A stretch of DNA of 64,000 bases from Anaerolineae bacterium. Lineage in GTDB: Bacteria; Chloroflexota; Anaerolineae; Aggregatilineales; Phototrophicaceae. Position 1 is the first letter of the stretch; each line of letters opens with the position of its first letter. The stretch is taken from NCBI GenBank assembly GCA_022843745.1, contig JALHNB010000001.1:338019-402018 (forward strand), given 5' to 3'. The translations under genes and the position numbers were made by a program. Positions 10,499 to 19,930 of the stretch are shown piece by piece. The notes beneath the pieces were generated by a model, which was not told where the DNA came from, searched no databases, and saw only the letters and a program-made list of their open reading frames with translations.

Positions 10499-11869
10499 AT
10501 GATTACGAAGAAACGTTGTATGAACATGATGTTGGTGTTGTCACTGTTGGCACTGGGCATCGTTCCTGCATTTTCGGTTGCCGCGCAGGACAGCCTGATT
10601 GAGTCGGTGTGCCTTGTGACCGATGTTGGTAAAGTGAATGACGGTACCTTCAACCAGTTAGCGTATGAGGGCATGGTGACAGTTGTCGAGGATTATGACC
10701 TGGAGTCAACCTACATCGAGACTCTCGCTCCGACAGACTATGCCGCGAATATTCAGACCTGCCTGGATTCGGGCTATGATGTCATCGCTACGATTGGCTT
10801 CCTGATGTCGGATGCAACATTGGCGGCGGCGAGTGATCCGGCTAACTCTGGCGTGTATTTCATCGGTATCGACCAGGGTTTTGAAGCTCCCCCAGCCAAT
10901 CTGGTTGGTGTCCAGTATCGCGAAGATCAATCCGGCTTCGTTGCTGGCGCACTGGCGGCGTTGATGAGCGAAACGGGTAAAATTGCTGGCATTTACGGTA
11001 TTCCTGTCCCGGCAGTGGTGAAATTCCGCAACGGTTTTGAGCAGGGCGCGAAATACATCAACCCCGACATCGACGTTCAGGGCGTGTATATCGACAGCTT
11101 CGTCGATTCGGCCAAAGGCGCAGAGACGGCGACCCAGCTTATCGAGGCCGATCCTGAAAATCCTGTGGACGTGATTTTCGGCGCAGGCGGGCAGACGGGT
11201 TCGGGCGGAATCAAGGCTGCGGCTGAAGCGGGTGTGTACGTCATTGGCGTTGACCAGGACGAATATTTCACCACCTTCGGCGCTGGCACGACCCCAGGCG
11301 CAGAATTCCTGATTTCCAGTGCGACAAAACGTGTTGATCGCGGTATCTATGTTCCCGTTGAACAACTGGTGAATGGCGATACCTCGTCTTTCGGCACGAA
11401 TGCGGTTCTCTCGGCCTCTAATGATGGTGTGTCATTTGCCCCAGCTCACGACTCAGACGTGCCAGAAGACGTGGCCGCACAGTTGACGGCAATTCTCGAA
11501 GAATTGAAAGCGGGTACTATCGTCACAGGTGTTGACCCTGTCTCAGGCGAAATGCTGCCCTCGCTGGCCGATCTGGTTGCGGGCAATCCTGAGTTGTCTG
11601 TACTTGCGGGAGCATGGACAGATGCGGGGATCGAACTGGAACCCGGTGTGGCTTACACCATCCTCGCCCCAAATAATGCGGCATTCGCAGCCGTGACACT
11701 GCCAGCGGATGCGCCGGACGCAGTGCTGGAAATCCTGATGGCTCATGTTATCGAAGGCGCAATGGCGGCTTCAGACGTTGAGCTGCCAGAAGGTGTGACC
11801 GTTGTCACTGGCGATATTCCGTTCAGCCAGGGCGTGATTCACATCATTGACGGCGTGGTGATGCCCTAA
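10499..11869 (+). CDS. BMP-family substrate-binding protein fused to a fasciclin-like domain
   Basis: 456 residues. The signal peptide (1-30, cleavage near VAAQ) has no lipobox Cys, although most BMP proteins are lipoproteins. Residues 35 to about 345 form a BMP/PnrA domain (VCLVTDVGKVNDGTFNQLAYEG, GVQYREDQSGFVAGALAAL, VIFGAGGQTGSGGIKAA, VIGVDQDEY), the family that binds purine nucleosides for ABC import. The last 105 or so residues look like a shortened FAS1/fasciclin domain (YTILAPNNAAFAAV, EILMAHVIEGAM, GVIHIIDGVVMP). FAS1 domains mediate adhesion, so this one may hold the unlipidated protein at the cell surface. The matching ATPase and permeases are probably those at 16171-21239, which are not adjacent. 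Confidence 0.85.
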   Translation: MITKKRCMNMMLVLSLLALGIVPAFSVAAQDSLIESVCLVTDVGKVNDGTFNQLAYEGMVTVVEDYDLESTYIETLAPTDYAANIQTCLDSGYDVIATIGFLMSDATLAAASDPANSGVYFIGIDQGFEAPPANLVGVQYREDQSGFVAGALAALMSETGKIAGIYGIPVPAVVKFRNGFEQGAKYINPDIDVQGVYIDSFVDSAKGAETATQLIEADPENPVDVIFGAGGQTGSGGIKAAAEAGVYVIGVDQDEYFTTFGAGTTPGAEFLISSATKRVDRGIYVPVEQLVNGDTSSFGTNAVLSASNDGVSFAPAHDSDVPEDVAAQLTAILEELKAGTIVTGVDPVSGEMLPSLADLVAGNPELSVLAGAWTDAGIELEPGVAYTILAPNNAAFAAVTLPADAPDAVLEILMAHVIEGAMAASDVELPEGVTVVTGDIPFSQGVIHIIDGVVMP

Positions 11870-14232: not shown

Positions 14233-14269
14233 AAACGCCAGGATGCCAGAAGTGGACTTGGCGTTTTTT
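14233..14269 (+). terminator. Intrinsic terminator after the multicopper oxidase gene
   Basis: An 8-bp stem (14233-14240 with 14259-14266, AAACGCCA and its complement) runs into six T (14264-14269). A TATAAT at 14273-14278 straight after it may be the -10 box for the next gene; its -35 is poor (GTGGAC, 15-base spacer). Confidence 0.75.
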
Positions 14270-14319: not shown

Positions 14320-15939
14320 ATGAAATTCGCTGCGCGTGCCTGGATTTTTATACTTGCTTTCCTTTCCTGGACAACGTTAATTCAGGCTCAGGAGTGGATA
14401 GGGGTATCCGCCCCGGATTGTGATTACGGTGGCGAAATTCTCTCGATTGAAGCACTCGATGAATTGACGGTGCGCTTTCGCCTGTGCCGTCCCGATTCCG
14501 CTTTTGCGTCCAAAATCGCGTTTGGAGCGTTTGCGATTCACCCCTCCGAATATCTACAAGCGACAGGCGGGACAGGCGATTTGCTCGAAAAACCGATTGG
14601 TACAGGCCCGTATCAACTCGAATCCTGGGAGCAGGGCAGCCAGATTGTCCTTAAGCGCAACGAAAACTATTGGGGGCCGCTGGCGATAGAGCCGGAATTA
14701 ATTATCCGCTGGAACGCCGAAGCCCAGGCGCGTTATGAAATGCTCAAAGCGAACGAAACGGACGCGATTGACAACCCAGGCCGCGACGAATTTGACATGA
14801 TCCGCAGCGATACCGAGCTTGCCCTTTATCCACGTCCAAGTACCACGATTTTCTATGTGGGCATCAACAATCGTTTCCCGCCATTCGATAATCCGCTGGT
14901 ACGGCAAGCGATGGCTCACGCGATTAATAAATCACAGATTGTCGAACAGTATTATCCTGAAGGTTCGCTGGTTGCCGACCAGTTTATGCCGCCTGCAATT
15001 TTCGGCTACACACAGGAAGTTCGGCCATTTCCCTATGATCCCGAACGCGCACGAACCCTGCTGGTCGAGTCCGGTGTGGCGCTGCCGATTCACGTTCAGT
15101 TGAGCTATCGCAACGTCGTGCGCGGTTATCTGCCCCAGCCGGGTAATGTTGCCCTCGAAATCCAGGCGGAATTACGCGCGGTTGGGATCGAAGTGGAACT
15201 CACGGAGATGGAATCCGGCACATTTTTGGACGCTTCTACAGCCGGGGAACTGCCATTGTTTCTGTTAGGCTGGCTACCGGATTACCCAGACGCGACCAAT
15301 TTTCTTGATTTTCATTTTGGGGCGAGTGCCAGCGACAGCTTTGGCGATAAATTCACTGAAATCACCGAGCCACTTTTTCAGGCCTCACGTCTGTTCGATT
15401 TGCAGGAGCGTTATCCATATTATGTCGAAGCCAATACCGCCATTCGTGACCTCGCGCCCATGATTCCCGTCGCCTATGGCAGTTCCGCCGCCGCTTTTCG
15501 GTCACGGATTGCAGGCGCACACAGCAGTCCGTTGAGCTTCGAATATTTCGCGGTGATGGATGACCCGGATGATGACAATATCATCTGGACGCAAAATGCC
15601 GAGCCGATCAGCCTCTATTGTGCGGATGAACTGGATGGCGAATCCTTTCGCATCTGCAACCAGATTCACGAAGCGCTGCTGACATTTTCGATTGCAGGGA
15701 CGACTGTGATTCCCTCACTGGCTCTCGATTACAGCGCTAGCGAAGATGCCACCGAATGGACATTTACCCTGCGGCAAGGGGTAAAATTTCACGATGGCTC
15801 GGCTTTGGATGCCAACGATGTGGTGCTGTCTTATCTGGTGCAGTGGGATGCCGCACACCCCCTGCACACGGGACGCGAAGGCACATTCACCTATTTCAGC
15901 GCCTTTTTCGACGGCTTTTTGAACGATAGTTTTGATTAA
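14320..15939 (+). CDS. Family-5 ABC substrate-binding protein with circularly permuted segment order
   Basis: 539 residues, normal length for SBP_bac_5 proteins that bind peptides or nickel. A Sec signal (1-23, IQAQ) leads directly into sequence normally found about 150 residues in (SIEALDELTVRFRLCRPD, KPIGTGPYQLESW, VLKRNENYWGP). The usual middle and C-terminal segments follow (FYVGINNRFPPFDNPLVRQA, LFLLGWLPDYPDATNFLDFH). From about residue 430 come segments that normally start the mature protein: ICNQIHEALLTF, LALDYSASEDATEWTFTLRQ, GVKFHDGSALDANDVVLSY. The protein then ends. The order is thus rotated with nothing obvious missing. No permease or ATPase of this transporter class is nearby. 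TAAGGA precedes the ATG. Confidence 0.82.
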   Translation: MKFAARAWIFILAFLSWTTLIQAQEWIGVSAPDCDYGGEILSIEALDELTVRFRLCRPDSAFASKIAFGAFAIHPSEYLQATGGTGDLLEKPIGTGPYQLESWEQGSQIVLKRNENYWGPLAIEPELIIRWNAEAQARYEMLKANETDAIDNPGRDEFDMIRSDTELALYPRPSTTIFYVGINNRFPPFDNPLVRQAMAHAINKSQIVEQYYPEGSLVADQFMPPAIFGYTQEVRPFPYDPERARTLLVESGVALPIHVQLSYRNVVRGYLPQPGNVALEIQAELRAVGIEVELTEMESGTFLDASTAGELPLFLLGWLPDYPDATNFLDFHFGASASDSFGDKFTEITEPLFQASRLFDLQERYPYYVEANTAIRDLAPMIPVAYGSSAAAFRSRIAGAHSSPLSFEYFAVMDDPDDDNIIWTQNAEPISLYCADELDGESFRICNQIHEALLTFSIAGTTVIPSLALDYSASEDATEWTFTLRQGVKFHDGSALDANDVVLSYLVQWDAAHPLHTGREGTFTYFSAFFDGFLNDSFD

Positions 15940-16170: not shown

Positions 16171-17715
16171 ATGACCGATTCCCCAGTTGTGCTTGAAGTA
16201 CGCGGACTCACAAAGCGCTTTCCTGGCGTTCTTGCCAATGACCACATCAGCCTCAAACTGCGAAAAGGTCAGGTGTTGGGGTTGCTGGGCGAAAATGGCG
16301 CTGGTAAATCTACCCTGATGAATCTGATTTATGGGCTGTATACGCCGGATGAAGGCGAGATTCTCGTCAATGGTCAGCTTGCCCATATTAAAAATCCGAA
16401 CGATGCGATTGCGCTGGGGATCGGCATGGTTCATCAGCATTTTCAGCTTGTACCTGTCCTGACCGTCACTGAGAATATCATGCTTGGTAACGAAACCACG
16501 CGCGGCCCGTTCCTCAACCGTCGGGCAGCCAAAACGCGAATTCTGGAGATCGCGAAGCATTACGGACTCGATGTAGACCCGGATGCGCTGGTTCATGATT
16601 TATCGGTGGGTGTCCAGCAGCGTGTCGAGATTATCAAAGCGCTGTACCGGAAAGCCGATGTTCTCATTCTGGACGAGCCGACAGCGGTACTCACACCCCA
16701 GGAAGCCGAGGGGTTGTTCGCGATCATGCGGACGCTGCTGGATCGTGGGGTCAGCATCATTTTTATTTCGCACAAACTCAAGGAAATCCTGGAAATCTGC
16801 GATCATGTCACGGTATTACGAGGTGGCAAAGTCGTCGGACAGGCTGACCCGAAGCAGTCCACACAGGAATCGCTGGCTTCGATGATGGTCGGGCGCGAAG
16901 TGATCCTGCAAGTGGATAAGGACGAAGCACACCCCGGTGATTCTGTGCTGGTGATTCATGACCTCTACGTCAAGGATGACCGCGACCTTATGGCTGTCAG
17001 TGGCCTCTCGCTGGAAGTGCGGGCTGGTGAAATTCTGGGCATCGCTGGCGTGCAGGGCAATGGACAAACTGAACTGGTCGAAGCGATCACCGGGCTGCGT
17101 TCGCTTGATAGTGGACACATCCTCATCGAAGGCCAGGACGTTTCCCATGCCAAGCCGCGCCGGATCACCGAACATGGCGTTGCGCATGTGCCTGAAGATC
17201 GACAGAAAAACGGCATGGTTTCCGATTTTCCAATTAAAGATAATATGGTTCTGCAAACCTACTACCTCGGGCCGTTTTCTATCGGCATTATCGCCAATGA
17301 AAGCGCCAAAGATGAAAATGCCCGCAAACTTGTTAAACAATATGACGTTCGCACGCCGAGTATTTACGTGAATATCGGTACGCTTTCCGGCGGCAACCAG
17401 CAAAAAGCCATCGTCGCGCGTGAATTTTCACGCCCCAGTCGTCTGCTGATCGTCGCGCAGCCCACACGCGGGCTGGATGTCGGCTCTATCGAGTTTATCC
17501 ACAAACAAATTATCAAGATGCGCGATGAGGGGACGGGTGTATTGTTGGTTTCAGCCGAACTAGACGAAATTTTATCCTTGTCGGATCAGGTGGCGGTTAT
17601 GTATGCCGGAAAAATCATTGATAAGATGCCGATTGACGAGGCTGACCGCGAAAATATTGGTTTGCTGATGGCGGGTGTCAAGCGTCAGCAAACAGAGGCG
17701 GTGACTCATGACTGA
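16171..17715 (+). CDS. BMP-type (nucleoside) ABC transporter, double ATP-binding protein
   Basis: 514 residues with two ABC cassettes in one chain. The first has Walker A GENGAGKSTL, signature LSVGVQQRVEI and Walker B VLILDEPTAVLTP. The second has the degenerate Walker A GVQGNGQTEL typical of the sugar/nucleoside importer group, signature LSGGNQQKAIVAREF and AQPTRGLD. This is the layout of NupO/YufO and RbsA-type proteins. It powers the two permeases that follow and overlaps the first by 8 bases. The BMP binding protein at 10499 is the likely substrate receptor. GAGG precedes the ATG. Confidence 0.93.
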   Translation: MTDSPVVLEVRGLTKRFPGVLANDHISLKLRKGQVLGLLGENGAGKSTLMNLIYGLYTPDEGEILVNGQLAHIKNPNDAIALGIGMVHQHFQLVPVLTVTENIMLGNETTRGPFLNRRAAKTRILEIAKHYGLDVDPDALVHDLSVGVQQRVEIIKALYRKADVLILDEPTAVLTPQEAEGLFAIMRTLLDRGVSIIFISHKLKEILEICDHVTVLRGGKVVGQADPKQSTQESLASMMVGREVILQVDKDEAHPGDSVLVIHDLYVKDDRDLMAVSGLSLEVRAGEILGIAGVQGNGQTELVEAITGLRSLDSGHILIEGQDVSHAKPRRITEHGVAHVPEDRQKNGMVSDFPIKDNMVLQTYYLGPFSIGIIANESAKDENARKLVKQYDVRTPSIYVNIGTLSGGNQQKAIVAREFSRPSRLLIVAQPTRGLDVGSIEFIHKQIIKMRDEGTGVLLVSAELDEILSLSDQVAVMYAGKIIDKMPIDEADRENIGLLMAGVKRQQTEAVTHD

Positions 17716-19930
17716 GCAAACCGTGCGTGGGCCAGCCATACTTAACCCCGTTGCACGTACCTGGGGGCGTATATCACAGCGCTTAGTCCCTATACTGGCG
17801 ATTATCACCGCGTTCATTATCGGCATCCCATTTATTATTTTCACCAGCGGCAGAGGCGATGTGGGCAATGGCCTGAATATCGCGGGGGTGGCCTACAGCG
17901 CCCTCATCGAAGGCTCAACGGGCATCGTCATTAATGATCTGGTTTCGCGCGACAATATCAATGTCGTGAGTGTGCTGGCGGCGGATAGCGACCTCACCCA
18001 GGGCGACCTGACAAGCCTCTCACGGGCAATCGCCGATGTAACCACCGCTGGCAGCGCCAACATCCGACGCTATGGCGAAATATTGGCGCAATTTGAGATG
18101 ATCGACGAGGAATTTGACGCTCTGGGTGCGAGTCTGAACGGAATCGCGGCTGTCGGTGTCGATACCCTGCAAGCCATGATGCCGCTGATTACCGAACTGG
18201 CGGCGCTCAGACGCGGTGATGTGCGTGATCTGGCCGAACCTTATCGAGGAAAATCGGAACTCACAGCCGAAGATCGTGCGGCGGTTGAAGCGCTTGCCCC
18301 CGCCGCCTCCGACTACAGCGACGCGGATTTGCTGCGATACATGCAGATTGTCAACGAGGAAGGAATCGCCTCGCTGGAACGTTATGTCGTGCAGATTGAT
18401 TTACTGGCACAGGTGGGGATTGCCCCTGGCAGTCCAGAAGCCGCCGATATTACAGCCATTGCTGAACTGACGACGGCTGAAGTGCGCGAATTGGTCACGA
18501 CACAGACTTTGCTGGATTCTGCGGGTGTCACGGATACCGCCGCTGCTTCCGAACAAGTGCAGATCGTTCGCCGCTTATATGATGCCGAAATTCTCACCAA
18601 TCCCAGTGTAAATGAAGCGCTGACTACTGAATTTGATACAGCGCTGAGTCAAAATCTGGTCGTTCGCCGCCCTGGTAATCAACTGCTGGTTGATCTGGGC
18701 GCAAGCGGTGTAACGGGCGCACTCTACGACACGAAAAACACGCCTGACGATACATCCGATGATCGAGTCTCCAATCTTTACCTACGGCTGGGTGATCGTG
18801 TACTTCTGTTTTTTCCTGCCAATCTGGAAACGCTGTTTGTCCGTTCAATTCCGTTTGTGATCGCGGGGCTGGCGGTTGCGCTGGGTTTCAAAGCGGGCTT
18901 ATTCAATATCGGTGCGGAAGGGCAGCTTTATGCCGGGGCGATTTTTGCCGTATGGGTTGGCTACTCGCCAATTTTCTCCGGCTTGCCGGGGGTTCTGCAC
19001 CTGCCATTGGTGCTGATTGCTGGCTTGGTGGGCGGCGCGTTCTGGGGAGCGATACCCGGTATTCTGAAAGCCTACACAGGTGCGCACGAAGTTATCAACA
19101 CGATTATGCTGAATTTCGTCGCGGTTCTTATGGTGGATTGGCTGATTAAATCGACCACGCCGATCATCATGCAAGACCCAACCGCCAGCACACCGCAGAC
19201 ACCCCTGATCGCGAATTCGGCACATCTGCCCGTTTTCAGCCACATCGCACCCATATGGTTTATCGTGGCAGGTATTCTGGTCGCGGCAGCAGGCATATAT
19301 TCTCAGCGCAAAGAAATCGCGCAAAATATTCGATTGGCGCTGCGTCCGGTGATTTTGGGCGTGATCGTCATCGTGGCAGGCTACTTTTTCGCGTGGGTTG
19401 CGGTGCGCGATAATCTGCATATCGGCCTTGTGATTATGGTCATCGCAGTCTGGTTTACCGATTGGTTTCTGACCCGCACCATACCCGGCTTTGAGCTGCG
19501 GACGGTGGGTGCGAACCCGGATGCTGCCCGTTATGCAGGTATGAGCGTTCCGCGCAACATCATCCTGGCGATGGCACTCAGCGGGATGTTGGCGGGGTTA
19601 GCCGGGACAATCCAGGTGGCAGGCGTACAATTCAGGATGGTGCCGGGGTTCTTTTCCGGCCTGGGTTTTGATGCGATTGCTGTAGCGTTGCTGGCACGTA
19701 CCAATCCACGCAATATGATCGCGGCAGGTTTTCTGTGGGGTGGTTTGCTGACTGGTGCGCCGCTGATGCAGGTCAATGCTAACATTTCAATTGATCTGGT
19801 AAAGATCATCGAGGCGCTCATCATCATGTTTATCGCTGCTGACGTGATTATTCGCACTCTCTGGCGTATTCCGGCGGGCGGCAAGGAACAAAACCTGGCG
19901 ACCACATTCACGAAAGGCTGGGGAGGCTGA
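17708..19930 (+). CDS. BMP-type ABC permease with a very large extracytoplasmic insertion
   Basis: 740 residues, about twice the usual 350. Residues 20-45 form a first transmembrane helix. YSALIEGSTG then matches the normal loop after it, but about 320 helical, acidic, hydrophilic residues (about 70-375) follow before the family sequence resumes at ETLFVRSIPFVIAGLAVALG and FKAGLFNIGAEGQL. The remaining transmembrane core is normal (HEVINTIMLNF, GFELRTVGANPDAARYAGMS). A second, smaller insertion of about 60 residues with two extra hydrophobic segments lies near 520-590. The large insert should project outside the membrane, where it could dock the binding protein. The ATPase overlaps it upstream by 8 bases and the second permease starts 1 base after its stop. 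Confidence 0.88.
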   Translation: MTEQTVRGPAILNPVARTWGRISQRLVPILAIITAFIIGIPFIIFTSGRGDVGNGLNIAGVAYSALIEGSTGIVINDLVSRDNINVVSVLAADSDLTQGDLTSLSRAIADVTTAGSANIRRYGEILAQFEMIDEEFDALGASLNGIAAVGVDTLQAMMPLITELAALRRGDVRDLAEPYRGKSELTAEDRAAVEALAPAASDYSDADLLRYMQIVNEEGIASLERYVVQIDLLAQVGIAPGSPEAADITAIAELTTAEVRELVTTQTLLDSAGVTDTAAASEQVQIVRRLYDAEILTNPSVNEALTTEFDTALSQNLVVRRPGNQLLVDLGASGVTGALYDTKNTPDDTSDDRVSNLYLRLGDRVLLFFPANLETLFVRSIPFVIAGLAVALGFKAGLFNIGAEGQLYAGAIFAVWVGYSPIFSGLPGVLHLPLVLIAGLVGGAFWGAIPGILKAYTGAHEVINTIMLNFVAVLMVDWLIKSTTPIIMQDPTASTPQTPLIANSAHLPVFSHIAPIWFIVAGILVAAAGIYSQRKEIAQNIRLALRPVILGVIVIVAGYFFAWVAVRDNLHIGLVIMVIAVWFTDWFLTRTIPGFELRTVGANPDAARYAGMSVPRNIILAMALSGMLAGLAGTIQVAGVQFRMVPGFFSGLGFDAIAVALLARTNPRNMIAAGFLWGGLLTGAPLMQVNANISIDLVKIIEALIIMFIAADVIIRTLWRIPAGGKEQNLATTFTKGWGG

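Follow-up and report, generated by a model that had tools for sequence, protein, structure and literature searches.

A circularly permuted family-5 binding protein from an Anaerolineae genome and its rotated relatives

Circular permutations are known among natural proteins in general, and binding proteins are a standard scaffold for biosensors, in which permutation sites have been found by trial. We know of no naturally permuted transporter binding protein besides TpMglB-2 (Tp0684) of Treponema pallidum, which was also the one precedent in the literature searched. TpMglB-2, of 'Cluster Bc', is an ABC-importer binding protein that is naturally permuted with its fold kept, and its authors suggest that the change suits tethering or anchoring (PMC4990184). 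It belongs to a different superfamily (Type I/cluster B sugar-binding) from the protein described below and is cut elsewhere, and the available text makes no mention of recurrent cuts or fusions.

The closest described relatives of our protein are Escherichia coli DppA and GbpA of H. parasuis (SBP_bac_5, cluster C), which are homologous to it along the whole chain and are its best matches in both sequence and structure. In DppA, Arg355 and Asp408 bind the two ends of a dipeptide and, after its release, the E41/R42 pair of the DppB scoop loop (E. coli; PMC12136057). Both residues are conserved in our protein, and a partnership with DppB and DppC is probable for the permuted family at large. Its segment order is rotated relative to every relative of solved structure, DppA and GbpA among them, with new ends at about DppA 118-124, and it scores far under the cut-off of the NCBIfam DppA equivalog (NF043070; 208.5 bits against 1005). 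Sequence and fold place it with these cluster C proteins, and it does not have the Type I/cluster B sugar-binding fold.

The gene lies in a window of 64,000 nucleotides from an Anaerolineae bacterium, the whole stretch of DNA analyzed here. We estimate a probability of about 0.85 that it encodes a secreted DppA/OppA-type binding protein with a circularly permuted chain, likely a peptide trap feeding a DppBC-type permease, in an arrangement inherited from an ancestor of these Chloroflexota proteins. No permuted family-5 protein was found in the literature searched, a search with most subscription journals outside its scope, so that a prior description is possible.

Rotated segment order and predicted fold

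The gene is a single intact ATG-to-stop frame of 539 codons (Table 1). The first-pass annotation had described a whole frame with its own signal peptide, ribosome site and terminator, and the sequence shows a likely counterpart of each: AAGGA was read directly about 12 nt upstream of the ATG, the leader MKFAARAWIFILAFLSWTTLIQAQ looks by eye like a signal peptide devoid of a lipobox cysteine, and a hairpin matching the terminator consensus precedes the gene.

Table 1. Features of the permuted gene and its upstream region, in window coordinates.
Feature	Coordinates	Strand	Remarks
Whole gene, circularly permuted SBP_bac_5	14320..15939	+	539 aa + stop
Terminator-like hairpin with T-run, 5' of the gene	14240..14267	+	consensus scan match only, putative function
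Signal-peptide-like leader, residues 1-24, without lipobox cysteine	14320..14391	+	read by eye; relatives carry equivalent leaders or lipoboxes
Short N-terminal tail, residues 25-37, with Cys34 (SAPDCDYGG)	14392..14430	+	typical of the main permuted clade
Middle and C-terminal segments, residues 38-411	14431..15552	+	match DppA ~124-502
Arg268, aligned with DppA Arg355 (R383 of precursor), dipeptide carboxylate binder	15121..15123	+	by alignment; role from PMC12136057
Asp321, aligned with DppA Asp408 (D436 of precursor), dipeptide amino group binder	15280..15282	+	by alignment; role from PMC12136057
Junction of old C- and N-termini, residues 412-422, VMDDPDDDNII	15553..15585	+	pLDDT >90 across
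Segment normally opening the mature protein, residues 423-535	15586..15924	+	match DppA ~1-120
Span of Cys34, Cys56, Cys434 and Cys446	14419..15657	+	main-permuted-clade cysteines

The protein matches Pfam SBP_bac_5 (PF00496) with 270.4 bits against a cut-off of 32.4, split over two stretches, the better of which aligns residues 38-337 with profile positions 63-365. A phmmer search of the PDB aligned residues 40-410 with positions 126-502 of GbpA (3m8u; i-E 1e-49) and residues 429-529 with positions 13-120 (i-E 3e-11), that is, as two non-overlapping stretches in swapped order, and the matches to DppA (1dpe/1dpp) gave the same picture. All segments of the family are present, each once and none duplicated, while the canonical order is absent; given the rotated order, we file the protein as a variant topology, homologous to SBP_bac_5 but non-canonical. 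Since no part of the family occurs twice, this is a rotation rather than an added domain. An extra C-terminal domain was considered and ruled out, the C-terminal ~115 residues (110 in the first-pass annotation) being the sole copy of the old N-terminal segment.

A stretch of about 10 residues joins the old mature ends, and the chain now starts and stops in the loop equivalent to DppA ~118-124, in agreement with the earlier proposal of a natural circular permutation opened in a loop; each test named as able to refute it was run, and none did. The proposed acidic linker DDPDDDN does join the old ends, yet its acidity is limited to the subgroup of the window protein; other members have KPGADT, IPEQDT or VPGQDT. 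As these joints vary, it is shortness (~10 residues) and not acidity that defines the joint.

From an alignment of 82 rows, with each canonical relative entered as two fragments, AlphaFold2 predicts one confident two-lobed fold (pLDDT 93.1, pTM 0.90), and pLDDT exceeds 90 over the junction and the greater part of the moved segment. The predicted fold is complete and lacks neither lobe, and with every segment present once it has both lobes of SBP_bac_5. A model from a permuted-only alignment of 7 rows was poor (pLDDT 59.5) and was set aside. The best structural matches are DppA and GbpA (dipeptide- and glutathione-binding), with Z of 32-33 over ~380 residues; Foldseek and VIA align in sequence order, and these values concern that part, with the moved N-segment outside the superposition. 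The rotated chain, its old ends linked by ~10 residues and its new ends opened in the DppA ~118-124 loop, would most likely fold as an ordinary two-lobed trap.

Distribution, operon context and probable function

The same rotated order, here called topology A, is found in a second copy in the same genome (L082, 54% identical) and in the closest six of 80 public-genome relatives (L001-L006), all from Chloroflexota; canonical order is seen in the remaining orderable relatives of the 80 and in the other members of the family in this genome. For wider surveys the query was a junction-spanning alignment (A2) that no canonical gene can match over its full length; canonical genes reached at best 1e-29 to 1e-39, with partial coverage of the junction only. 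In a sample of the class, 245 of 396 genomes were matched at 1e-20; some 70 of these matches were weaker than 1e-40, and those inspected were canonical, leaving topology A in ~175 of 396 genomes (a count from the match table). It was also present in 53 of 400 genomes of a phylum sample, families of other classes included, and in 3/246 Actinomycetota. No permuted genes were detected in the sampled Bacillota (0/249), Pseudomonadota (0/249) or Cyanobacteriota (0/136). These counts are lower bounds, drawn from samples in which the best few candidates per genome were scored. Viral contigs contained no relatives, and plasmid-record matches, compared by identity only, were all <60% identical, the five listed being <33%. 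One 1.2 Mb genome (G701; L216 and contig C79) has four permuted paralogues as two adjacent pairs.

Many of the source genomes are metagenome-assembled, and two partial genes wrongly joined by assembly or annotation could in principle give such an order. However, the order and the cut site recur in the paralogue and in over 100 other species, single-contig genomes (e.g., G010, G027, G351) are among the carriers, and this sharing among independent genomes excludes an artefact for practical purposes. Judged from sequence, the gene encodes a circularly permuted order which many Chloroflexota share by inheritance.

In every inspected topology-A protein the last residues are ...FGGFK-GE, ...FGGFLN or similar, and the chain starts immediately ahead of [S/K]IEAVD..TV. 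That the cut is identical throughout speaks for one origin. In a tree of the shared part (52 rows) the main permuted clade is strongly supported (100/100), and forcing all permuted rows together incurred no cost (AU p 0.5), with which a single origin of topology A would be compatible. Cys34, Cys56, Cys434 and Cys446 typify the main permuted clade and are absent from basal permuted forms and canonical kin; disulfides 34-56 and 434-446 are possible.

Among closely related binding proteins, the cargo can be haem, glutathione or metals in place of dipeptides. In the permuted proteins, Arg268 and Asp321 are invariant across the aligned members, and their ligands would be di- or oligopeptides gripped by this pair. 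Where enough downstream sequence was available, dppB directly follows 64 of 78 permuted genes, typically at a spacing of 60-250 nt, and dppC then follows dppB in loci read far enough; the scoop pair reads G-E-[K/R/H] in all 52 DppB partners examined. The retention of the ligand-gripping residues together with the matching charge pair of DppB suggests that the permuted proteins are very probably working peptide importers. In one relative (L001:6852-8783), the first helix and the permease domain of DppC are separated by a WD40/beta-propeller-like insert of ~300 residues (Pfam OppC_N 27-67, propeller ~115-430, BPD_transp_1 459-642).

The paralogue L082 sits in a dppB-dppC operon, and the window copy is an orphan with no dppBC beside it, flanked by a multicopper oxidase gene on one side and a BMP-type transporter operon on the other. 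Two genes in the window have unusual architectures: at 10499-11869, a BMP-family binding protein with a fasciclin domain at its C-terminus, and at 17708-19930, a BPD_transp_2 permease with ~370 additional N-terminal residues without a Pfam match. Pseudomonas aeruginosa offers a parallel for a shared permease, since its DppA1-A5 share one DppBCDF (PMC4206461). Lacking adjoining permease genes, the window copy probably uses the DppBC encoded next to its paralogue; sharing is the likeliest arrangement, and peptides would be delivered to a DppBC-type permease by both copies.

The orphan state of the window copy might instead mean that this gene, with the 54% identical operon paralogue also in the genome, is a duplicate in decay and functionless. 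We regard this as quite unlikely, because nothing interrupts the frame and the protein still has its signal peptide and every family-invariant residue; 46% divergence with no damage to the frame suggests selection on this copy. A somewhat less remote, though still unlikely, alternative is that the permuted protein serves not as a transporter subunit but as a receptor or scavenger, binding peptides and signalling or merely holding them. The orphan copy would suit such a role, and so would L201:1409-4666, where a single ORF joins a caspase-like C14 domain, an FHA domain and a membrane segment to a permuted SBP_5 in a receptor-like arrangement. This is the only receptor-like fusion seen, however, and both the dppB that so often follows permuted genes and the scoop charges kept in every partner argue for the peptide importer.

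Fusions and further rotations

Many permuted modules stand C-terminal to another binding protein in one chain, either SBP_bac_3 (e.g., L205, L206) or Peripla_BP_6. Some chains contain three binding proteins: two Peripla_BP_6 precede the permuted module in L199 (1348 aa) and L200 (1337 aa), and Peripla_BP_6 plus SBP_bac_3 in L202 (1140 aa). Canonical SBP_5 is fused likewise behind other binding proteins in L211-L215. The partner domain of the permuted L115 is 86% identical over 165 aa to that of the canonical L213, and for L199 and L211 the figure is 62% over 436 aa, indicating that the same partner precedes either topology. Chains of two to three different binding proteins with a single lipobox in front and SBP_5, canonical or permuted, last were observed in L199, L200, L202, L205, L206, L211-L215 and L218. 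GlnPQ resembles these chains in having more than one binding domain each, but its two binding domains are linked to its own permease (PMC8025302), whereas here different families are joined and the permuted SBP_5 comes last. Compared with TpMglB-2, the frequent fusion of the permuted module behind other binding proteins would be new, as would three further rotations with other cut sites.

These other cuts came to light in the junction survey. The first, topology B, was found in Planctomycetota (L219-L228; 4/139 genomes, and 10/17 in one class). It is a lipoprotein beginning at the strand equivalent to about window residue 256 and ending in LLREAGY or similar, cut at DppA ~341-344; dppB comes next in loci long enough to judge, and the tree places it outside topology A. 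Topology B' (Chloroflexota family f40; L184, L186) has a similar cut and is nested among canonical Chloroflexota genes (support 100), which points to a separate event. Topology C (genus g84; L229, L230) begins at about window residue 188 and ends just before it, a cut at DppA ~272-276. At the former ends of A it reads ...FLEVPPATATDTKYEAPNCDYGG..., the C-terminus of A joined to an A-type N-terminal linker; it groups inside topology A (support 99), and its sister genus keeps topology A (L231). Topology C thus appears to be a permutation made from a permutation. Both B' and C come from two genomes each, in assemblies of several hundred contigs.

Tandem duplication followed by trimming is a route to circular permutation (PMC3320104) and may account for every cut, given that the old ends are joined in each case. 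The best evidence for this route is topology C, since it retains the N-terminal linker inside its chain; a search of the fetched ORFs for intermediates carrying the N-segment twice found none. Topology A would have arisen in the ancestor of these Chloroflexota proteins, probably in this way. The route is also the likely one for classical permutations of the swaposin type (PMC3320104), from which the present case differs in that one family shows at least four rotations, one derived from another.

We consider it likely, with slightly less assurance than the main reading, that family-5 proteins have been permuted repeatedly, into at least four topologies (A, B, B' and C), with selection acting on the site of the tether or fusion and with the old ends always joined because they are adjacent in the fold. 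As an effect, another loop rather than the original N-terminus would bear the signal peptide, the lipid anchor or the fused partner, and the proteins may benefit from such a moved tether.

Significance for the family

Annotation pipelines report these proteins only as 'SBP_bac_5, two hits', and the permutation is overlooked. The first-pass annotation recognized it in the window gene, where that call stands, and missed its widespread inheritance, the fusions and the other cut sites. The fusions of several binding proteins are a further unexplained architecture. Three natural permutation sites are marked here, which is relevant to biosensor design. Within one family, a permutation is inherited across much of a bacterial class, sister genes are otherwise rotated, and one rotation appears to come from another; together they make up a series from nature in which to study how permutations come about and whether selection favours a shift of the chain ends, and with them the tether.
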